Positions 6,269 through 63,265 of a stretch of DNA of 64,000 nt are shown here, piece by piece. Position 1 is the stretch's first letter, and each line of letters opens with the position of its first letter. Position numbers and translations under genes: made by a program. The DNA is taken from assembly GCA_964023205.1 (NCBI GenBank), contig OZ026835.1, positions 57,501-121,500 of the forward strand, written 5' to 3'. The notes below the pieces were generated by a model that was given only the letters and a program-made list of their open reading frames with translations, ran no database searches and was not told the DNA's origin. The stretch comes from Lutraria lutraria (Eukaryota > Mollusca > Bivalvia > Venerida > Mactridae).

Positions 6269-7483
6269 CTGGCATCAGTTACCTAGCTAAGAACAATACT
6301 CAAAAACAGTAAGCTCCTTTAACTCAAATAAGACCAAGAGTTAACAAGAGTCATCAAGTGTCAGCTAGGGTAATCAAATACTTACCAGAGTTAGCAAATA
6401 GGGTCTATCAAATTGGGAAATCTATTTTTAGTAACTTTGATTACCCAAGCTGACTCTATAGATATAGTGGAAGGCTGAGATTGCTTGCGTATATAGACTT
6501 TCAAAGCCTCCAAAGTAAGCTTCTGTACAGTCCATGATACTACATAAGCACAGTACCCAAAAACAGTAAGCCCTTTAACTCAAATAAGACAAAAAGTTAG
6601 CTAGGGTAAGCAAAAGTTACCATTGTTACTATAAATAGATTTATTTCTTTTTAGAACAATGCCTTGTAAATATGTAAATACAAGTCCACAATTAAGTGGC
6701 CCTCCTGCTTTCACACTCGGGACTTGGGACCCGACGATGGCGCAGTTACCACTAACTTACTTACTAACTAACTGCTTTTCAGGTTCGGGTCCAGCACCCA
6801 AATTAATGCATGGCGTGCCGGCTGGCTCCGAAGCTGGCTCTGCCGACAGTCAGACACACCTTTCAAACAATATCAATACTAAACACAGCAAATGGCTCAC
6901 CCAGAACAGCCGTCCAACTGGCCAGGTTCGAGCCCAGCACTGAAATTCATAGGCGGCCAACGGGCCGGCTGGCTGACTGAATGTTTCTGCCGACAGACAG
7001 ACCCAGCATTCAAACAATATCAATAATCGATATCCAAAATGGCTCTACGCCCCGTTGCTTAGCTGCCATCCGGCTACCTGGCAGGCTTCAATCCAACCAT
7101 GCAACCCGATTGGCTCAAATATTCCAACCGGAAGCCTTCGATTCAAAAATAATCCATCACGTATGGCAGCTTAATACAACAAAATAAATAAAACTAGCTT
7201 ACCGTATTTATTTCATATCCAACAATAATCTTTTTAACAATAATTCCGATAAAAACAATAATACCAGCAACACGTCAAAACCCAACGAGCTCCAAAACTG
7301 AAATGATTCAAATAAACGGTTGAGATGCGCGCGCATACAAATTAGCTCCGCCTTTCATTCTGTTCTATATATAGATATTATTCACCATGTGACTGTACCA
7401 CGTGACTTCTAAATATAGATTGGTCACGTGGGGTGGACATGGGGTGGACAACTTGGGGTGGACATCACGTCAAAGTGCCTATA
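6269..7483. other. Subtelomeric spacer, copy B
   Basis: Nearly identical to 1484-2697 at an offset of 4785-4786 bases. Visible differences are a few bases, for example the stretch after GCAAATAGGGT, one A/G change near 7090 and one near 7423. It carries the same B-box-like words, CACGTG motifs and triple GGGGTGGACA. No gene is supported. Confidence 0.85.
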
Positions 7484-45896: not shown

Positions 45897-47242
45897 TACG
45901 GAATACTGTTAGTGCCATGTCGAATGTCGTCCGTCGCCCCACAAACGCGACACACGACAACGCGATACGACAATGCGACAGCGCGATACGACAATGCGAC
46001 AACGCGATACGACGCTCGACAATGCGATACGACGGACGACAATGCGATACGACATTTGTCAAAATGTCGTGATGTTGAGTGGCCAATTTTGGCACGATAT
46101 ATTACAATGTCGTATCGCGTTGTCGAGCGTCGTATCGCGTTGTCGCATTGTCGTATCGCGTTGTCGCATTGTCGTATCGCGTTGTCGTGTATGCATTAAC
46201 GAATTCATTGTTTTCTGATTAATTACTGGCAGTTTGTTTGCATTAACAGTTATATAAACTAGTGATGACTGCCAAATGCATATCTATATATATATATTTT
46301 CATGAGGTCAATATACAGGAATCAGCCATCTTTAGAATTTACAGCTTCGTCGTGGAAACATTTCTATCCAATGGAGTTACTTTTGTATCTTTGTGTTTGT
46401 TCTTCAATAGTCAATACACGTATTAAAACGTTCAGTTGTTCATTACAAACGTTAAAGAATAACGCATATGCGCAAATGAAACCAGCACATGTATAAACTA
46501 CCACAAATATTACTTATATATCATATAATGACAATTCATCAACAACCCTTGTTAATATGAAAAAAAAACATACATAAGAAACTAGCAGACGCCATCCTAC
46601 CGCGCGTGTTAGACGATGAAAAGGTAACTTTTGTTCAGGTCAGGTGCGAGTAAATTTTATTGTCGCAACTATCGAAGCGAACGGCGGTATTTATTTAAGT
46701 GAACACCGGTCGACGCACGACAACGCGATACGACATTTTCAAAATGTCGTATCGGGTTGTCGAGCGTCGTATCGCGTTGTCGCAATGTCGTATCGCGTTG
46801 TCGCATGTCATGGTATGGACGCATAGGCGACACACGACAACGCGATACGACATCACGACATTTGGACGAATGTCGTATCGCATTGTCGAGCGTCGTGTCG
46901 CATTGTCGAGCGTCGTATCGCGTTGTCGTGCGTCGCATGTCGCTGAGATGCAGGACACGGCGCACGACAACGCGATACGACAATGCGACAACGCGACAAC
47001 TTGATACGACGCTCGACAACGCGATACGACATTGTCATATATCGTGCCAAAATTGGCCACTCAACATCACGACATTTTGACAAATGTCGTATCGCATTGT
47101 CGTCCGTCGTATCGCATTGTCGAGCGTCGTATCGCGTTGTCGCATTGTCGTATCGCGTTGTCGCATTGTCGTATCGCGTTGTCTTGCGTCGCGTTTGTGG
47201 GGCGACGGACGACATTCGACATGGCACTAACAGGATTCCGTA
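45897..47242. mobile_element. Foldback-like element with CGATACGAC tandem arms
   Basis: Outer inverted repeat: TACGGAATACTGTTAGTGCC at 45897 pairs with the complement ending at 47242. Arms of about 300 bp (45897-46195 and 46960-47242) are near-perfect complements and include the unique word GGCCAATTTTGGCACGATAT. The arms are built from a period-21 unit, for example TATCGCGTTGTCGCATTGTCG, and its complement. A third palindromic module lies at 46715-46945. The middle (46200-46700) is unrelated AT-rich DNA. Repeated open frames on both strands are products of the repeat period. The architecture resembles Drosophila FB elements. Confidence 0.75.
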
Positions 47243-53384: not shown

Positions 53385-54367
53385 GATCACTCTTAGATGT
53401 TCACTTCTTAATGTACAGGGTTTAATTACTAAGTTAAACAATAAATTAGTTAGTTCAGAGTTACAATCAGTTTTTAATGATAGTGATATAGTTTTGTTTA
53501 CGGAAACATGGTCACAAGAATTTATTGACTATAGTGTTGAAGGTTTTACATGTTATCCACTTCATAGATCGTGTCATGTTGTATCATATTGTTTTGTTTT
53601 CAGAAACACAATCGGGTCTTCAAAACGGTTTCGATATATTATTAGATTATTGTACGAAATGGAAAATGATTGTAAATACTGAAAAGTCCAAAGTAATGAT
53701 ATTTCGAAAAGCTGGTAGACTGTCTAATAATGTGTCTTTTGTTTATAATGGACAAAATATTGAAATTGTAAACTCATTCTCTTATTTGGGTATTGTTTTT
53801 ACAGTAGCCGGATCTTTTTATCAGACACAAATAACATTAGCTGGTCAATCAAGGAAAGCGATTTTCAAATTAAATAAATATTTGTATAATTTCTCAAATA
53901 TTGGGATAACACATAGACTTGAATTATTTGATAAATTAGTATTACCCATTCTAAACTATTCATGTGAAGTCTGGGGTTTTCAGACTGCTACTAACATAGA
54001 ACGAATACATACTCAATTCTGTAAAAATATTTTGGGAGTGAAGCGAGTTACACAGAATAATTTTGTCTACGGTGAGTTAGGAAGACACCCTCTGATAAAT
54101 GGGAGATATTTAAGAATTATTAAATATTGGTTCAAAATTATGGAATCAAAAGAAAACAAATATATTAGGATTGTATACAATATTTCTAAAAGTGACTGTG
54201 ATCGTATGCCTCATGTTAAAAACTGGACCAGTTTGTTACGGGATTTATTATCATCTTTAGGTTTTTACGAGGTTTGGTTTTTTCAAGGCGTTGGGAATAA
54301 AAAGATATTTTTTAATTTATTTAAACAAAGATTAAATGATAACTATCAACAAGTCCTACATGAGTAG
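53385..54367 (+). pseudogene. Internally deleted LINE ORF2
   Basis: Begins with the endonuclease start (LNVQGLITKLNNKLV, VLFTETWSQEF) at about 53400, then jumps near 53580 to the end of the RT thumb and the C-terminal domain in another frame (WKMIVNTEKSKVMIFRK, IVNSFSYLGIVF, HRLELFDKLVLPILNYSCEVWG, CKNILGVKRVTQNN). Most of endonuclease and all RT catalytic motifs are missing. The C-terminus is closely related to the LINE at 32615-34941. Confidence 0.75.
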
Positions 54368-54584
54368 TAATGGGCGTAACCCTGGGTACCAAATCAACGT
54401 AATTGGTACCCAGAAGTTTTCAAAATTGTGACAAATTGGGTCAAATTGGAAATCAATGTTGTACCCCAAAATAGTATGAATTGAATTTTAGGAATGTTCT
54501 GGGTACTGTGTGTGTTTTGTTATTTGTACTGTATAGACTAAATATTTGAGACAATGAGAGAATTTTCTTTCGAAAAGACATGGT
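54368..54584. other. LINE 3' end / left border of the viral region
   Basis: Contains a perfect 11-bp inverted repeat, CTGGGTACCAA at 54382-54392 and TTGGTACCCAG at 54403-54413. The left end of the viral element must lie between 54368 and the first stem-loop at 54585, but no terminal repeat or target duplication could be recognised. Confidence 0.4.
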
Positions 54585-54622
54585 GGCCCTGAAAAGGGCC
54601 GTTGGTGGTCCTGAAAAGGACC
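54564..54622 (-). terminator. Histone-type 3' stem-loop pair and downstream element
   Basis: Read on the minus strand, 38 nt after the stop of the 225-codon gene comes GGTCCT-TTTC-AGGACC-ACC (54607-54622), then GGCCCT-TTTC-AGGGCC-ACC (54585-54600). Each has a six-pair stem, a UUUC loop and an ACC 3' flank, the layout of the replication-dependent histone mRNA hairpin. GAAAGAAAA follows 13 nt later (54564-54572), where histone genes carry the purine-rich element that pairs with U7 snRNA. Orientation is diagnostic: the loop and ACC flank occur only on the gene's sense strand. Confidence 0.7.
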
Positions 54623-54659
54623 GTTGGTCGTGGTTTCTTCATAGCTGTTAGTCGGATCT

Positions 54660-55337
54660 TCATTTCTTTATTTCTTTACCATACTTGCCCCGAGGTTGTT
54701 TCTCAAGGTCATGTTTTCGTTTCTTCGTTTCTGTCATCTCCGGTTTCTTTTTGTCATGCTCCGGTTTCTTTTTCTCATGCTCATGTTTTCGTTTCTTTGA
54801 ATCATACATAAACTGTACAGGTACAATCATTTCTTGTGGCTTAAACCGTACTTCTTGATTCTTCATGAGTCTGACCATCTCTTGCATGACTTGATTCATC
54901 TGTACCATTTCTTCCCTGATACCTTGTAGAACAGACAATCCCGTTGTAGGCTTTGCATCACCCGTTGTATTAGACTGTGTTTTCGCCATAGGGGGCTGTG
55001 TATTCGCCATAGGGGGCTGTGTATTCGTCATAGTGGGTTGTACATCTACCATAGGCTGTGTATTCGTCATAGTGGGTTGTACATCTACCATGGGTTGTAT
55101 CGGCTGTACATCTACCATGGGGGGTTGTACATCTACCATGGACTGTTGACTGTACTTAGGCAGGATGTACAGTGGTTGACTGTATTGGCTGTACTGTGGC
55201 TGACTATACTGTAGTTGACCGTACTTTGGCTGGTTGTACTTCGGCTGGTTGTAATGCATACCCGCATTCGGGTCTATCAACTCAGATGATTCTAGTGCTT
55301 CTCTCAATACATCGTATGGCATGTTGAAGGACTCCAT
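54660..55337 (-). CDS. Gln/Pro-rich protein with basic tail, unknown function
   Basis: 225 codons from the ATG at 55337, chosen because a TATAAATA box (55373-55380) lies 36 bp upstream and the longer frame would start before it. Three parts: residues 25-75 with QYSQPQYSQ-like Tyr/Gln/Pro repeats; 75-130 with repeats of MVDVQPTMTNTQP; then a helical segment (LQGIREEMVQMNQVMQEMV) and a Lys-rich tail with KKRKHEHEKKK and KKRKHDLEK, likely nuclear localisation signals. It could be a virion or DNA-associated protein, but no family is recognised. The mRNA would end in the histone-type stem-loops. Confidence 0.65.
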   Translation of the reverse strand: MESFNMPYDVLREALESSELIDPNAGMHYNQPKYNQPKYGQLQYSQPQYSQYSQPLYILPKYSQQSMVDVQPPMVDVQPIQPMVDVQPTMTNTQPMVDVQPTMTNTQPPMANTQPPMAKTQSNTTGDAKPTTGLSVLQGIREEMVQMNQVMQEMVRLMKNQEVRFKPQEMIVPVQFMYDSKKRKHEHEKKKPEHDKKKPEMTETKKRKHDLEKQPRGKYGKEIKK

Positions 55338-55372
55338 GCTAGATAATGAAAAAATAGTGTCTGCGCCGGGGG

Positions 55373-55800
55373 TATTTATACTTTTTGCCTGCACGCGCCA
55401 GTGTTCTATTAGGTCAAGGTTATTTTTGACACTTCAATTTTTTTTTTTTTTTAATAAGTGTGACACTTCAAGTTTTTTTTTGAACAAGTGTTTGACACGT
55501 CAAGGTCAATTGTGACACGTCAAGGCCGACACGTCAAGGTTATATTGTACACATCAAACTATCACTTATATTTGTGGGAATACTTTGTACACATTATACT
55601 ATCACAGCAATTTGAATACTGTACACTTAATATATACTATCACAGCAATTTGAATACTGTACACTTAATATATACTATCACAGCACTTTGAATACTGTAC
55701 ACTTAATATATACTATCACAGCACTTTGAATACTGTATACATTTGTTGAAAATGATTGTACATCACACATCATACTATCACAGCACTTTGTAGGAAAAAA
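55373..55800. promoter_or_regulatory. TATA box and iterated intergenic region
   Basis: TATAAATA (minus strand, 55373-55380) serves the 225-codon gene. Next to it are five to six iterations of TGACACGTCAAGG-like words (55411-55540), two of which include TCAAGGTCA or TCAAGGTTA. 55580-55760 has four to five copies of a unit of about 38 bp (ACTATCACAGCAATTTGAAT, ACTGTACACTTAATATAT). Candidates are an enhancer or a replication origin; neither is shown. Confidence 0.55.
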
Positions 55801-55960
55801 TGTTATAATGTTTATAGAAAACTCTATAAAACGTACACTTACCCCACACCGTCTACGCACCAGCATATTAAGTTTATAAATGACGCCATGATTTGACGTC
55901 ATCAGATAGGAATGTAAATATAGTAGTAAATAGTAAAGTATGATAATATTGACAATATGA
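55801..55960. other. Intergenic, no feature seen
   Basis: AT-rich spacer between the iterated region and the next stem-loop pair. A minus-strand open frame through here overlaps the stem-loops and is considered spurious. Confidence 0.4.
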
Positions 55961-55966
55961 GAGTGA

Positions 55967-56025
55967 TTCTTTCTGAATTGTATGGGGGGCCCTGAAAAGG
56001 GCCGTTGGTGGTCCTGAAAAGGACC
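55967..56025 (-). terminator. Histone-type 3' stem-loop pair and downstream element
   Basis: Second instance of the pair, 20 nt after the stop of the 107-codon gene: GGTCCT-TTTC-AGGACC-ACC (56010-56025) then GGCCCT-TTTC-AGGGCC-CCC (55988-56003), followed 14 nt later by GAAAGAA (55967-55973). Sequence around the stems (CCAACGG before, ACCA after) matches the first pair, while the flanking DNA does not, so the stem-loops are conserved selectively or were duplicated with their 3' UTR. Confidence 0.7.
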
Positions 56026-56044
56026 GTTGGTGCTTGTATGGGGA

Positions 56045-56368
56045 TTAATGGCGTTGACCGCATCTCCCCATACAAGCGGGACACCACTTGTCCCATTTCT
56101 GGACATCCTTGGGGTCCGGCGTGGGTTGGTAGAGGTTCGACGGAACCTCCGTGAGCTCATCTTCCCAGTTCTCTGGGGTTGATTCTTGAGGGGTATCCCC
56201 CCAGTCCTCTTCCCCAGAGCTAACCACAACCTCCTCTTCAAATTTCTTTCCCTCTCTCAGGGTCTTCACCTCCAACCTCAACTCTTCTAGTTGCATTTCT
56301 TGTTGTTCAATATACAACCCTAAGGTTGTATACTTTCTCTTAATAATGTTAAGCGTACGTTGAGACAT
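56045..56368 (-). CDS. Small acidic coiled-coil protein with CPAC..C motif
   Basis: 107 codons from ATG 56368 (MSQRTLNIIKRKYTTLG). The longer frame would translate the triple CCAAT repeat, so the internal Met is preferred. Residues 15-45 form a coiled coil (QQEMQLEELRLEVKTLREGK), then an acidic stretch (SSGEEDWGD), and the end is WCPACMGRCGQRH, a possible zinc site. No family recognised. Promoter is the shared CCAAT region; the 3' end is a histone-type stem-loop pair. Confidence 0.6.
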   Translation of the reverse strand: MSQRTLNIIKRKYTTLGLYIEQQEMQLEELRLEVKTLREGKKFEEEVVVSSGEEDWGDTPQESTPENWEDELTEVPSNLYQPTPDPKDVQKWDKWCPACMGRCGQRH

Positions 56369-56431
56369 CTCGATACAGAATGAAACTAGATCAAGGTAAG
56401 GCCACTCACTGACTATGATACAAGGACTCTG

Positions 56432-56484
56432 ATTGGTCCATTTTAACAGTATTTCATTGGTCCATTTTAACGGCATTTCATTGG
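56432..56484 (-). promoter_or_regulatory. Triple CCAAT box between divergent viral genes
   Basis: Three ATTGG (CCAAT on the minus strand) at 56432-56436, 56456-56460 and 56480-56484, at exact 24-bp steps within a short tandem repeat (ATTGGTCCATTTTAAC). They sit 64-116 bp upstream of the 107-codon gene and 69-121 bp upstream of the divergent MGNC gene. Spacing and number suit NF-Y binding. Confidence 0.6.
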
Positions 56485-56552
56485 TCTGTTGTTTTCTAGG
56501 TCAGTTAGTGTTTTTTCATGTTCCATAGCTCATTTATGTTTCATGATTCAAC

Positions 56553-56780
56553 ATGGGCAACTGCTTGAAAAGTACTTCTGATGAACCTGATGAGTTACAA
56601 GAAGATGTTTGGGTGGTCAAGATGGGTAATTTGTACCCAGACTTGTCTGAATTTCAAGATACTTGTGTTGTCAAGATGGATATCAAGATGGGTAATTTAT
56701 ACCCTGACCTTGGCATGTATTATGATGAGGATTTGAGAGCCAACTATTGGCGGTACTTATTTCTTGCAGAAATGCAATGA
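56553..56780 (+). CDS. Small MGNC-type (probably acylated) protein
   Basis: 75 codons starting MGNCLKSTSDEP: Gly2 followed by Cys and Ser at position 7 fits N-myristoylation with adjacent palmitoylation, so membrane attachment is likely. KMGNLYPDL occurs twice (about residues 23-31 and 45-53), an internal duplication. The C-terminus (RANYWRYLFLAEMQ) is amphipathic. Acidic overall. Function unknown. A histone-type stem-loop starts 11 nt after the stop. Confidence 0.6.
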   Translation: MGNCLKSTSDEPDELQEDVWVVKMGNLYPDLSEFQDTCVVKMDIKMGNLYPDLGMYYDEDLRANYWRYLFLAEMQ

Positions 56781-56790
56781 ATTACCCAAC

Positions 56791-56806
56791 GGCCCTTATT
56801 AGGGCC
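56791..56806 (+). terminator. Histone-type 3' stem-loop
   Basis: GGCCCT-TATT-AGGGCC followed by ACCA, preceded by CCAAC as at the other loci, on the plus strand, the sense strand of the MGNC gene. The loop differs from UUUC but keeps U at loop positions 1 and 3. A GAAAGAA element is not seen close by; CAAGCAAAGA occurs about 30 nt later. Confidence 0.65.
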
Positions 56807-56871
56807 ACCATATGTGTTAGATTCGTTTTGTTTCTCAAGCAAAGACAAAAGCATATTACATTGTCTATCAT

Positions 56872-56877
56872 TTTATT
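56872..56877 (-). terminator. Poly(A) signal of the zinc-knuckle gene
   Basis: AATAAA on the minus strand, 105 nt downstream of the stop at 56982. There is no stem-loop between the stop and this signal, in contrast to the two neighbouring genes. Confidence 0.55.
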
Positions 56878-56981: not shown

Positions 56982-57332
56982 TTACACAAAGTCACTCACA
57001 GTTTTTGTTGGATTCTTTTTGTATTTACGTTTTTTCTTACTCTGTTCTGCGTCCTGTAGATCGACCTGTTCACCTTGTTTCTTAGGACAGTCTGCGATGA
57101 AATGTCCTTGTTCATGACAATAAAAGCATTCATTGTTGAAGGGTTCCGTACAGCTTGTAGAATAATGTCCTTTCTTTCCACAACGATAACACTTGATATG
57201 ATCCCATGTTACATTTTTCTGTCCACAGAGCTGATCCGCTAAGTTGTTAAGCTCTTTAATTTTTTTCTTTAATGAATACATCAAAGTTTGATCTCGGTTC
57301 TCTTCAACTTGGTTCATTTTAGGATCGCTCAT
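56982..57332 (-). CDS. Double CCHC zinc-knuckle protein
   Basis: 116 codons. Residues 18-40 are helical (SLKKKIKELNNLADQL). Two zinc knuckles follow: C48-C51-H56-C61 in CYRCGKKGHYSTSC and C69-C72-H77-C82 in CFYCHEQGHFIADC, then a Lys-rich tail (SKKKRKYKKNP). Such knuckles bind single-stranded nucleic acid and are common in retroviral nucleocapsids and cellular RNA-binding proteins. Here it is divergently transcribed from the polymerase with a TATAAAAG box (57366-57373) 34 bp upstream of the ATG, so an early, replication-associated role is possible. Confidence 0.75.
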   Translation of the reverse strand: MSDPKMNQVEENRDQTLMYSLKKKIKELNNLADQLCGQKNVTWDHIKCYRCGKKGHYSTSCTEPFNNECFYCHEQGHFIADCPKKQGEQVDLQDAEQSKKKRKYKKNPTKTVSDFV

Positions 57333-57441: not shown

Positions 57442-60400
57442 ATGTCAGATACCGACAGTACTAGTGGTGAGGATGAACCTCCAACTAAACGAAGTAAGGT
57501 TGAGCCTGTGCGCGAGTATTATGACATACAGTCACGCATGGAAAGAAAGTCAAGGAAATTTAAGACTCAATCCAAAGTATATGATGTGACATTTCAACCG
57601 TATAATCAATCGTTTGAATTTACAAACAGGTTGTTTAATGATATGATGGACCAACTCTACAAGAGATGTGAAGTGAGATCGAATGATCGAGTTCGAGTAT
57701 CTATTCTACATCCTGATTTGGACTTTGGGATACATGTTCCGTTTAATAGGGCATCTCGTATTAGTGGAGATACATTATTGGATGAAATTGAACGTGTGGC
57801 ACAGAGTAACCGTCAATTTAAAATTCATGATGGGGCGGCACAGATGGAAATTACGCATATTGCTATGCCACAGGGATCCGGAAAGAAAACGTTTAAAGCA
57901 TCAAACTTATTCAGTATGCGGAAGTCAAAGACAAGTGTTGTGTGTATTGACAATAGTAAAGACTCTATGTGTTTAGCTAGATCGATTGTGGTAGGACGGT
58001 GTAAAGTACATGAAAATCAAACCCCGGAATGGAAAAAACGATGGAATCTAATACGTCGCTCTAAGAAAAATCTTCAAAAATACGAAGCTGAAGCATTATT
58101 AAAGCAAGTGGGTATTTCATCGGATCAGTCGTGTGGTATAGAAGAATACCAAAAACTACAGGACTATCTCTATCCAGGCTATGTGATTAAAATCCATCCA
58201 CAACATTATGGAAGTGAATTGTTATTCAAACCACCTGCTATGACTGAAAAAAGTCGTGTGATTCATATCTTTCACCATGATAATCATTATGACTGTATCG
58301 TATCCATTACCGGATTTCTCGGACGGGTTTATTATTGTGAATGGTGCGATATCAGTTATGATCACCGTGAAGGACACCAGTGTAGCCATATTTGTCAGTG
58401 TTATGCTCACACCCTGTGCCCAGCAGGACAATCTATAAGATGTCCGGATTGCCGTCGCCTATTCCAGAGTCAGGCATGTTTTGACAATCATAAAACAAAA
58501 ACGGGAAAACAACGTAAAACCATTTGTGAATCCGTATGGAATTGTAAGAAATGTGGGCAAAAGGTGCTTGGAACGAAACGGAATCATGTTTGCCCAGGGA
58601 CAAAGAAATGCAGGTGTTGTAAAGCCATAGTAGGACCAGATCATGACTGTTACATTCCAACGTATGAACCACCCGATAGAAAACAACCAGAAGTACCATT
58701 CATCTTTTTTTATTTTGAATGTCGTTTTGATTCTGGAGAACATATCCCTAACTTTTGTGTGGCTCAACGTGCTTGTGGTGACTGTATGTGTAAGTCAGTG
58801 AAAACTCCATGTGAGTATTGTGAAGAGGTGAATGAAGCCAGACAAATGACATTCCGTGGTGAAAATACGTTACAACAATTCTGTACTTGGCTATTCCTCC
58901 CTACCCATCGAGGATCGACAGTGATAGCCCACAATGCTCAAGGCTATGACGCTCAGTTTATTCTTAGATATGTGGTCACTCAGGGGACGGCGAAACCCCA
59001 GTTGATTATGAATGGTAGTAAAATCATTCAATTGAGAGTGCATGGAATACGCATGATTGACTCCCTCAGTTTCCTGAGTATGCCTCTCTCCTATTTTCCC
59101 AATACATTTGGACTGACAGAGTTAGCCAAAGGATGGTTTCCATTCTATGCAAACACCTTGGCGTATCAAGATTATGTGGGACCTTATTTGCCGCTACACT
59201 TTTACAAACCGGATAGTATGAAACCAGAGCGACGTGAAGAGTTTTTAACCTGGTACAATGAAAGAAAAGGTGACGTATTTGATTTTCAAAAGGAAATGGA
59301 GAAATACTGTCAATCGGATGTGGACATTTTAAGACGCGGGTGTGGAGAATTTCGTCAACAATTATTGGACAGTGATCAAATAGATCCATTTACTGAAGCT
59401 ACCACGTTAGCTCAAGTGTGTAACAAAGCCTGGCGCAAAAATTCCATGCCACCTCATAGTTTAGCCGTGATTTCGGATGCCGGGTATCCCAATAAAACCC
59501 GGTATTCCATGAAAGGCATACGTTGGCTACAAATGATGGCTGTCACCGAAGAGATACATATTCGACATGCCTTGAATAACAAAGGCGAAGTCAAAATTGG
59601 ACCTTATTACGTGGATGGCTATTGTCAAGAGACCAACACCGTGTATGAATTCATGGGATGTTAGTACCATGGGTGCCCCACCTGTTTTCCTAACCGAAGT
59701 ACCATCAATCCATATACTTTGAGAAGCATGCAACAGGCCTATCACGATACGTATAAGCGACTGGAGTCTTTGAAAGAACAGGGGTACCCTGTTGTGGTCA
59801 TGTGGGAATGTGAATTTGATCAGCGTTGTCAAAAGGATCCTGCCTATAAGACAAGAGTGGAACGATTCTATCATGGTCAAGACCCGATTCAACCCAGGGA
59901 AGCTTTGTTCGGAGGTCGTACGAATGCCGTCCGACTGTATCATGAAGTAGACAACGATCAAGAAATAAAATATGTGGATATTTGTTCTCTCTATCCGTAT
60001 GTGAACAAGTACAGGGCTTATCCGATAGGTCATCCAGTGATCATGAGTCAAGAACAAATTGATCAACAGCATATTGAGAAATACAAAGGACTGATTAAAT
60101 GCCGTGTTCTACCCCCGCAAGATTTATGGATGCCTGTCTTACCCATACACTGTAATAGTAAAATGGTGTTTACGCTATGCCGTACCTGTGCTGAGAAGGA
60201 GATGGATTATTGTACACATTCATCGTATGAACGGTTCTTGTATGGCACATGGACTCATGTTGAATTGGCTAAAGCTATTGCTTTAGGCTATCAAGTATCA
60301 AAAGTGTATCATGTATGGCACTGGGATGAATGGAGTACGGACGTCTATCGACAATACATTGACAAATACTTGAAAATGAAACAAGAGGCTAGTGGATATC

Positions 60401-61233
60401 CTCCAGGGGTGGATACGGAAGAGGCTCAAGATAAATTTAAACAAGATTATTTTGAAGCAGAAGGAATTCGTTTGCAACAGGTGGAGAAAAATCCAGGAAA
60501 ACGAGCTTTTGCCAAAACCATGTTGAATTGTCTGTGGGGTAAAAATGCTCAAACCAACCTCTTACCTAAAACAGAGTATGTTCATCGATTGGACCAGTTC
60601 TACGGAATACTGAACGATCCTAAAAAGTCTGTGAAATATGCAGAGTGTTTTGATCATGATGAATTCATGTTAATGAATTACACTGATGAATCGGACAAAG
60701 CAGACCCTCATTCATCATCCAATCCTGTGGTGGCTTCATTTGTGACGGCTTATGCTCGATTAGAACTGTACAAAGTGCTTGAACCTCTAGGAAAGAGAGT
60801 ATTGTATTTTGACACAGACAGTTGTATGTACATTCATGACCCTGATGGCTATAATGTTCCTATTATACCCAGTCGATTGGGAAAATGGACAGATGAGGTA
60901 CCAAAGGGTCGTATTGTGAGATATGTCGCTTTAGGTCCAAAGAACTATGGCTATGAATACATTGAAAACGGTGAACTCCATCAAAAATGCAAAGTGAAAG
61001 GCATTACGTTAGACTACAATGCCACTCAACAAGTGAATTTCAATACGATGGTGGATTGTGTGAAAGACAGACACCATTATTCGACCGTAGTTGAATATGC
61101 TTCTCGGATTAAACGTCATAAGGACAGAACCGTGACCAGTGAGAAACAAGTCAAAACATTTCGTTCGGTGTATACCAAACGTATTGTGGTCGAGAATCAT
61201 ATGACTGTGCCTTATGGTTATCTACATGACTGA
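57442..61233 (+). pseudogene. PolB: Protein-primed-type family B DNA polymerase, interrupted
   Basis: Replicates the linear viral genome. Start set at ATG 57442 (MSDTDSTSGEDE), after the TATA box. 1264 codons in one frame, broken once by an in-frame TAG at 59662-59664. Order: N-terminal region; a Cys/His-rich zinc-finger stretch at about residues 295-410 (CEWCDISYDHREGHQCSH, CPDCRRLFQSQACFDNH); exonuclease motif I as FFYFEC with Tyr424 at the usual catalytic Asp; motif II AHNAQGYDAQF; motif III YCQSDVDIL; polymerase motif A DICSLYP (846); motif B TMLNCLWGKN; motif C FDTDSCMY (1124); then KVKGITLDY. All polymerisation residues are present. The stop and the Asp-to-Tyr change suggest a decayed copy; readthrough of the TAG is less likely. 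Last 3 bases overlap a TGACCTTGA motif. Confidence 0.85.
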
Positions 61234-62567: not shown

Positions 62568-62577
62568 AATAAATAAA
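62568..62577 (+). terminator. Overlapping poly(A) signals
   Basis: AATAAATAAA, two overlapping AATAAA hexamers 42 nt after the last stop of the three overlapping genes. They could end the transcripts of the cluster running from the polymerase or F-box-like gene. Confidence 0.5.
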
Positions 62578-62617: not shown

Positions 62618-63265
62618 ATGGAGTCCAGTTTACTTTTTAAGCATCCTTGCAATATGTTTATCTCAGGCCCTAGTGGCTCTGGTAAAACACAATTTGTAAA
62701 AAAGGTGTTGGAATACAAATCAGATTTGTTTCAAGTAGTACCAGAGCGTATTGTATGGTGTTACAAAGAATGGCAAGTAGCCTATGCACAATTACAAGAA
62801 CAAGAACCTAGTATTCGGTTCATACAGGGGATACCTGACGAGGATGAAGAGATAGTAGAGGATACATCCATTCCTCATTTAATTATATTTGATGACATGC
62901 TTGGTGATAAAGATGAAGAGAAAATCAAATTATGGTTTACACGAAAAGGTCACCATCGTAATGCTAGTGTGATCTACATTACACAAAACATGTTTCAACA
63001 ATCGAAAGCCAGTCGTACCCTGAGTTTAAATGCACATTACATGATCTTATTTCAAAACACAAGAGATAAAGGACAAATCAAAGTGTTGGCGAATCAAATT
63101 CAATTGCCACACTTGTTACCCGCTTATCAAGATGCTATCTCTACACCTCATGGGTATTTAGTGATTGACTTTCACCCTCAAACACCAGACAGTTATCGGT
63201 TAAGAACAGATATTTTTCATCACTGGATCACTGGAGAAAAACGTGGGCCAGTTGTGTATATATAA
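62618..63265 (+). CDS. A32/FtsK-like genome-packaging ATPase
   Basis: 215 codons. Walker A GPSGSGKT at residues 17-24 and Walker B LIIFDD at 88-93, then RKGHHRNASVIYITQNMFQQ, the sensor region typical of A32-like packaging ATPases of Polintons, adintoviruses, virophages and giant viruses (SxxRTxSxNxHYxxLFxNxRD pattern in SRTLSLNAHYMILFQNTRD). It pumps genomic DNA into the capsid. Full length for the short Polinton form and intact. The stop overlaps the TATA box of the next gene. Confidence 0.9.
   Translation: MESSLLFKHPCNMFISGPSGSGKTQFVKKVLEYKSDLFQVVPERIVWCYKEWQVAYAQLQEQEPSIRFIQGIPDEDEEIVEDTSIPHLIIFDDMLGDKDEEKIKLWFTRKGHHRNASVIYITQNMFQQSKASRTLSLNAHYMILFQNTRDKGQIKVLANQIQLPHLLPAYQDAISTPHGYLVIDFHPQTPDSYRLRTDIFHHWITGEKRGPVVYI

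Follow-up and report, generated by a model that had tools for sequence, protein, structure and literature searches.

We analysed a window of 64,000 nucleotides (nt) from the bivalve Lutraria lutraria (assembly GCA_964023205.1, contig OZ026835.1, positions 57,501 to 121,500) and focused on the integrated virus at its right end. This provirus is about 17.2 kb long and runs from window position 54363 to G000:C4:129039, with its left 9.6 kb inside the window. A preliminary description of this DNA had reported that three viral genes end in hairpins like those of replication-dependent histone mRNAs, which are bound by SLBP. The hairpins, their genes and the associated elements are, from left to right (RF00032 is the Rfam model of the histone 3' hairpin; U7 is the small nuclear ribonucleoprotein, snRNP, of histone mRNA processing):

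54363..54626, no strand: left terminal inverted repeat, starting AGTAGTA, matching the right end (L046) at 99.2% identity over 264 bp
54566..54571, minus: GAAAGA, putative histone downstream element (HDE, the U7 site) of gene 1
54585..54600, minus: gene 1 distal hairpin, GGCCCU-UUUC-AGGGCC (RF00032 at 54559-54605, 35.8 bits, E 1e-6)
54607..54622, minus: gene 1 proximal hairpin, GGUCCU-UUUC-AGGACC, its 16 nt identical to the host H1 hairpin
54660..55337, minus: gene 1, the left end gene, 225 amino acids (aa), Q/P-rich with a basic KKRKH-rich tail
55968..55973, minus: GAAAGA, putative HDE of gene 2
55988..56003, minus: gene 2 distal hairpin (RF00032 at 55964-56008, 34.0 bits, E 4.8e-6)
56010..56025, minus: gene 2 proximal hairpin, its 16 nt identical to the host H1 hairpin, present in 16/16 sister copies
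56045..56371, minus: gene 2, 108 aa, homologues P0021 and P0022 at 85-86%
56553..56780, plus: gene 3, 75 aa, beginning MGNCLKS and containing two LYPDL motifs; nothing in Pfam above cut-off
56791..56806, plus: gene 3 hairpin, GGCCCU-UAUU-AGGGCC (RF00032 at 56786-56831, 31.0 bits, E 6.3e-5), present in 16/16 copies
56840..56845, plus: CAAAGA, putative HDE of gene 3, at +34 from the hairpin

All five hairpins first described were re-found at these positions, with perfect 6-bp stems (GGCCCT or GGTCCT) and 4-nt loops (TTTC in four, TATT in one). Their 5' flank is AAC, and the 3' flank is ACC in four and CCC in the gene 2 distal hairpin; the other window hairpins have an A directly 3' of the stem. 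The hairpin nearest to each stop codon begins 37 nt (gene 1, minus), 19 nt (gene 2, minus) and 10 nt (gene 3, plus) downstream, in the sense orientation of its gene as had been reported. The argument that such an arrangement would not arise by chance also held: hairpins with a GG[CT]CCT stem of six pairs and a loop of four appeared in 0/100 order-1 Markov randomisations of the window, and an extended motif, which omits the hairpin with the CCC flank, appeared in 0/100 dinucleotide shuffles versus 4 observed. A chance origin of the window hairpins is thus very unlikely. The covariance model RF00032 matched all three loci in sense at 35.8, 34.0 and 31.0 bits, the gene 1 locus lying above and the gene 2 locus at its gathering score of 34 bits, and gave no further match in the 64-kb window up to E 10.

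The host histone genes form a tandem array on contig 6. In one unit, H3, H4, H2B and H2A end in AAACGGCCCUUUUUAGGGCCAC (stem GGCCCU) and H1 ends in CAAAGGUCCUUUUCAGGACCA (stem GGUCCU). These hairpins scored 34.5 (H4), 33.8 (H3), 31.9 (H2A), 31.7 (H2B) and 30.5 bits (H1) with RF00032; all except H4 are likewise below the gathering score (H3 marginally), and the host range of 30.5-34.5 bits overlaps the window range of 31.0-35.8 bits. A C directly before the stem is common to core histones and provirus, and the right distal hairpin of the window element is identical to the core-histone hairpin. Hairpins on the host histone genes imply that the host has SLBP. The stem of the Rfam consensus, GGCUCU, matched nowhere in the genome when sought under identical flank and loop requirements. 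The provirus stems are thus those of the host histones while the textbook stem is absent, so the virus follows the local form of the signal.

The same hairpins are spread across the genome. A GGYCCU-type pattern had 1,161 forward and 1,089 reverse exact matches (2,250 in 728.5 Mb), and the reversed-pattern control had none. The first 100 listed places all lie on contig 1 and form 18 groups, of which 14 had the strand order minus, minus, minus, plus, plus, plus, three lacked the last plus and one consisted of a single match. Each of the 17 large groups extends over 16.6-17.0 kb, the last five-match group being incomplete within these 100 places, and the six-match layout corresponds to an end pair, gene 2, gene 3 on the opposite strand and the opposite end pair, as in the window provirus. 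Counting about 5-6 matches for each copy points to several hundred copies, an estimate extrapolated from one contig.

At least 44 places in the genome matched RF00032 among 75 scored of 131,090 candidates, a set that misses the histone array and the window itself. Five belong to a tandem 109-aa gene, and 37 of the remaining 39 were examined, in 35 end stretches chosen by their hairpin hit (outside these stretches lie C4:24259608 and C6:1922183). The end hairpin was preceded in sense by gene 1 (16) or the MPH gene (18) in 34/35 stretches, with no recognised gene upstream in L020, and the end hairpins of other copies scored 33.1-41.6 bits. Sixteen sister copies were picked by their gene 1 end hairpin, irrespective of internal hairpins. 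The expectation that related elements carry the hairpins was borne out here: the internal hairpins after genes 2 and 3 were kept in 16/16, and the gene 2 distal hairpin in 15/16 (one with a U.G pair), being decayed in L062. The distance from stop codon to hairpin is 10-75 nt in almost every copy examined and 120-149 nt in L043, and tandem hairpins are usually spaced by 6 nt, in some copies by 13 or 25 nt. Natural variants found among L023, L007 and L062 include a single end hairpin, the loop UCUC, a GATAGA downstream element and the decayed distal hairpin.

The loop bases and the stem pairs differ in how much they vary. Constancy of the loop in the main copy scans is by construction, because the pattern fixes loop positions 1 and 3 as T and the closing pair as T-A; the genome-wide pattern fixes these bases as well. 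In a scan of 52 stretches that left the loop free, U occupied loop positions 1 and 3 in 114/118 matches with positions 2 and 4 variable; three of the other four were antisense out-of-register matches and one was an unrelated stem. U1 and U3 of the loop matter for SLBP. In an alignment of 15 distinct hairpins, from 20 picked for variety, 97.8% of stem cells were paired, and stem pair 3 was C-G in 11, U-A in 3 and U.G in 1. Compensatory stem changes, named beforehand as supporting evidence, are therefore present at pair 3, and at that pair only.

A purine-rich element follows the hairpins. In genes 1 and 2, GAAAGA starts 14-15 nt downstream of the last hairpin, and such a +8 to +30 placement occurs at 0.8% of random window positions. 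Counting the window and the copies, GAAAGA or AAAAGA lies within 32 nt downstream of 49 of the 54 hairpins counted as distal; the five exceptions are L007 (GATAGA), L019, L021 and L022 (long linker after the hairpin) and L062 (decayed distal hairpin). Similar cores occur at about +12 in host H2A (AAGAAAG) and H3 (AAGAGA), and in H2B only at +29. As a further observation, genes 1, 2 and 3 each have a TTGTC stretch that begins 17-21 nt from where the purine core starts (window 54550-54584, 55951-55987 and 56807-56865); in the host unit (L075), H4 has TTGTC at +40, and TTGTT is found at +40 in H1 and at +34 in H2B.

A hairpin was also found in a distant relative. Four distant contigs encode relatives of the viral DNA polymerase type B (PolB) at 26-34% identity, three in bacterial metagenome-assembled genomes and one in a clam-symbiont assembly, and are presumably contaminating eukaryotic or viral DNA. 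One of them, L005, has an RF00032 match (35.8 bits, E 8.7e-7; stem GGCCCU, loop UAUC) 28 nt after the stop codon of a zinc-finger open reading frame (ORF), with AAAAAAGAG at the HDE position. The expected sense hairpin after a stop codon was thus found in L005 and not in the three other contigs, all fragments.

According to the parts of the literature covered here, the hairpin at the 3' end of histone mRNAs is the binding site of SLBP, the downstream element base-pairs with U7, and the transcript is cut between the two, about 5 nt past the stem (PMC7026596, PMC6303110, PMC10388802). The shortest RNA that SLBP binds fully includes two adenines on the 5' side and one on the 3' side of the stem (PMC10388802). 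The viral loci share with these 3' ends the six-pair GG....CC stem, the U-A closing pair, the UNUN loop, the 5' adenines and the mostly ACC-type flank, as well as a purine-rich downstream element and, in the provirus family, the lack of a nearby AATAAA. Most notably, they have the same stem variants as the host histone genes, and CCAAT boxes are a further shared feature, lying in the virus between genes 2 and 3. They differ in standing behind non-histone viral genes, often as tandem hairpins and partly in terminal repeats, in also having the loops UAUU and UCUC, and in their number (2,250 genome matches, as against 5 per histone repeat unit). The histone-type reading of the hairpins was thus supported by RF00032 matches, host-matching stems, a conserved HDE-like element and the absence of AATAAA nearby. 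We consider SLBP/U7-type 3'-end formation on a subset of genes in this bivalve adintovirus/Polinton-like provirus family the likely explanation, with a probability of roughly 0.88 judged from the DNA sequence. Host SLBP would bind the viral hairpin or hairpins, the U7 snRNP would pair with the downstream purine element, and CPSF73 would cut a few nucleotides after the last hairpin. The resulting non-polyadenylated viral mRNA would be processed, stabilised and translated mainly in S phase, when it would also be most abundant. Tandem hairpins would probably provide a stronger or back-up SLBP site, and the likely gain would be accessory-protein expression timed to host DNA replication.

The alternative that survives best, though an improbable one, is that SLBP binds but the mRNAs are dually or mainly polyadenylated, the hairpin serving stability, translation or localisation. 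Precedents are found in the parts of two papers covered: C. elegans histone genes have both a hairpin and AATAAA (PMC1924863), and dual 3' ends were reported for H2A.X mRNA (PMC7807067). In L005, AATAAA lies at +71 beyond the hairpin, so polyadenylation is possible there, and the same holds for the MPH gene, where ATTAAA lies within 200 nt after 3/33 hairpins (none of the other 77); both count against a purely histone-type end. The downstream element of gene 3 is also farther out (+34) than those of genes 1 and 2. Against polyadenylation, AATAAA was found within 200 nt downstream of 0/110 copy hairpins (gene 1, 30; MPH, 33; gene 2, 31; gene 3, 16). Sequence diversity bears on the same question. 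It was calculated over 17 sequences (the window and 16 copies, 17/17 retained) by extraction anchored on the hairpin letters. At gene 2 it was 0.088 in the coding region, 0.031 in the hairpins and 0.0097 in the next 32 nt (+43 to +75 from the start of the proximal hairpin), then 0.363 and 0.294 (0.36 for +75 to +110). At gene 3 it was 0.062 in the coding region, 0.000 in the hairpin, 0.023 up to +62 (3/41 sites variable between +21 and +62 from the hairpin start) and 0.139 beyond. Conservation at gene 2 runs past the expected cleavage point and then collapses, and the contrast at gene 3 is weaker. The strongest conservation at gene 2 thus includes sequence beyond the expected cleavage point, which a polyadenylated mRNA would not need next to the hairpin.

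Still less probable is that the palindromes act as DNA, in replication priming, transposition or packaging, with a coincidental likeness to histone hairpins. The position of the end hairpins fits such a role: they stand at the inner edge of the terminal inverted repeats and face outward at both ends, the left repeat ending 4 nt beyond the gene 1 proximal hairpin on the gene side. Because the gene 1 hairpin locus lies within the repeat, a fourth locus is found at the right end, outside the window, where a mirror hairpin pair follows sequence resembling MPH, a gene of 155-159 aa in the sister copies L008, L019 and L021. Each element thus has four genes with hairpins: one at either end, reading outward, and the divergent genes 2 and 3 in the interior. 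However, there are also hairpins behind two other genes, one on each strand, at about 1.6 and 2.4 kb from the left end, and a DNA-level role leaves unexplained the fixed U1 and U3 of the loop, the AAC and mostly ACC flanks, the host-matching stem variants together with the absent textbook stem, and the conserved downstream element on the sense side. Passive capture of host histone 3' untranslated pieces that hitch-hike without function is plausible as an origin, the viral stems being those of host core histones and H1, but is scarcely credible as the whole explanation given four loci per element, in sense and kept in nearly all copies examined, hairpin regions less variable than neighbouring non-coding DNA, and a wobble intermediate of compensatory change.

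Several other results weigh against SLBP/U7-type processing. The gene 3 hairpin, at 31.0 bits, is below the RF00032 gathering score. The three hairpin loci first described all exist, but those of genes 1 and 2 share a cassette of about 83 nt at 80% identity and therefore are not independent origins; the sister copies, too, are closely related. Covariation comes from one pair and its shuffle control was mixed: the score and the number of cells changed on both sides were each reached by 12/500 shuffles, and the count of pairs changed on both sides by 320/500. Host H4 and H1 have no AAAGA-like core downstream of the hairpin. The host U7 gene was not found with a U7-like Sm-site pattern (28 matches vs 25 in the control); none of the 20 matches inspected had a convincing 3' hairpin, and 0/6 scanned matched RF00066. 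Finally, a hairpin was present in 1/4 distant PolB contigs, all fragments of 3.6-8.9 kb.

Under SLBP/U7-type processing, the accessory genes would probably form a non-polyadenylated, S-phase-timed expression class apart from the polyadenylated replication and capsid set. Polymerase and morphogenesis genes would keep ordinary poly(A) ends. The zinc-knuckle gene convergent with gene 3 has AATAAA at 56872-56877 (minus), 105 nt after its stop codon, and no sense hairpin; this AATAAA is kept in 16/16 copies, on the opposite strand of the interval behind gene 3. In the run of plus-strand genes, AATAAATAAA lies at 62568-62577, 42 nt downstream of orf120. With an estimated several hundred proviruses of five to seven hairpins each, there would be many times more viral hairpins than host histone hairpins. 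The viral ones may compete for SLBP or attract proviruses to histone locus bodies.

According to the parts of the papers covered, no metazoan mRNAs other than those of replication-dependent histones are known to lack poly(A) tails (PMC6303110, PMC10388802), a rule that the virus family would break if the proposal is true. A DNA virus would also gain a way to tie expression to S phase, and the provirus hairpins offer many natural variants for studying the specificity of mollusc SLBP and U7. The machinery is known; what we rate as new, from sequence comparison, are its putative users, the tandem architecture and the placement in terminal repeats. Among the matches listed from open-licence PMC, as far as their contents were covered, none reported SLBP-type 3' ends on viral or non-histone metazoan mRNAs, and the candidate histone-type ends set the provirus apart from adintoviruses and Polintons as known, for which the same listings contained no such report. 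Histone-encoding DNA viruses, one of them a clam virus, borrow from the host histone system according to the covered parts of a review (PMC9145170), whose main text contains no occurrence of "stem-loop", "SLBP" or "polyadenyl". Those viruses borrow the protein, whereas the provirus here would borrow the mRNA 3'-end signal.

The remaining features of the provirus inside the window are:

56430..56486, no strand: three CCAAT sites (NF-Y type, RRCCAATSR) in repeats of about 24 bp between divergent genes 2 and 3
56982..57332, minus: zinc-knuckle (CCHC) gene, convergent with gene 3 (PF00098, 3.9e-8)
57442..61233, plus: PolB, interrupted by a stop in the window copy (PF03175 on both pieces; homologue P0001 at 97%)
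62618..63265, plus: Pox A32-like packaging-type ATPase (PF04665, 3.9e-8)

The CCAAT repeat region is a candidate shared bidirectional promoter of genes 2 and 3, and 3-5 such sites are found between these genes in 16/16 sister copies. Host H3, H2A and H2B have CCAAT sites within 250 bp upstream, and H4 and H1 have none within that distance. Divergent H2A-H2B pairs resemble the arrangement at genes 2 and 3. Because NF-Y sites are common in cell-cycle promoters, the likeness is supporting evidence only.

Gene 1, with TATAAATA 43 nt upstream of its ATG, had no Pfam match at E 0.1, and the search of the protein database gave no homologue at E 0.01. The start of gene 2 is most likely 56371, in line with its relative P0021, and its predicted structure is one helix (residues 4-50) followed by an acidic, Cys-containing, low-confidence tail (single-sequence AlphaFold2, mean pLDDT 72). 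We take the MGNCLKS start of gene 3 to be myristoylation-like, resembling RNF11, and its two LYPDL motifs are presumably like ALIX-binding late domains.

PolB opens the run of plus-strand genes, and its relatives include proteins of the clam Mercenaria. The provirus resembles adintoviruses and Polintons (Mavericks) in its PolB, packaging-type ATPase, terminal inverted repeats and 6-bp target duplications. The hallmark of Polintons/Mavericks is terminal inverted repeats together with a 6-bp target-site duplication; the window element has 264-bp inverted repeats, and three sister copies are flanked by the duplications CATGAC, GCTAAT and AGTGAT. The adintovirus label given earlier depends on two genes in the window, PolB (PF03175) and the packaging-type ATPase. 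In the part of the definition covered, adintoviruses have a PolB with an OTU-like N-terminus, a hexon and an integrase with a chromodomain (PMC11071296), and the Pfam scan of the window PolB did not report an OTU domain. Near one end of a sister copy lies a protease-like ORF (Peptidase_C5, E 0.053, below cut-off), and in L005 there is an integrase core, along with a chromodomain match that falls slightly short of cut-off. Beside this integrase with its chromodomain-like end, L005:7189-7695 encodes a homologue of the TATA-binding protein (PF00352, E 1.2e-27).

The viral contig collection gave no relative of the window PolB, the L005 integrase or the L003 PolB and 0 matches to strict hairpin patterns, and the phage collection gave no match. 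Two contigs retrieved with a relaxed pattern, L001 and L002, are phage-like without an RF00032 match, and were set aside as chance matches. In the host genome, a tandem repeat of about 1.5 kb (L015-L018, G000:C12:22876300-22916000) contains a non-histone ORF of 109 aa whose product has an acidic tail. Behind the ORF, 39-40 nt from its stop codon, stands a histone-type hairpin with one C.A mismatch, together with a stretch resembling CAAGAAAA; the ORF is a candidate host non-histone gene with histone-type 3' ends. Kinship of this gene with gene 2 was rejected (BLASTP E 3.6).

Elsewhere in the window, two twister-P1 ribozyme matches (1910-1966 and 6696-6752, minus) scored 37.0 bits each, below the gathering score of 67.2; they are identical in sequence and therefore repeat copies. 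Positions 45897-47242 contain dense inverted and direct repeats of a GTCGTATCGCGTTGTC-like unit with long inverted arms, and the microRNA matches in these repeats look spurious.

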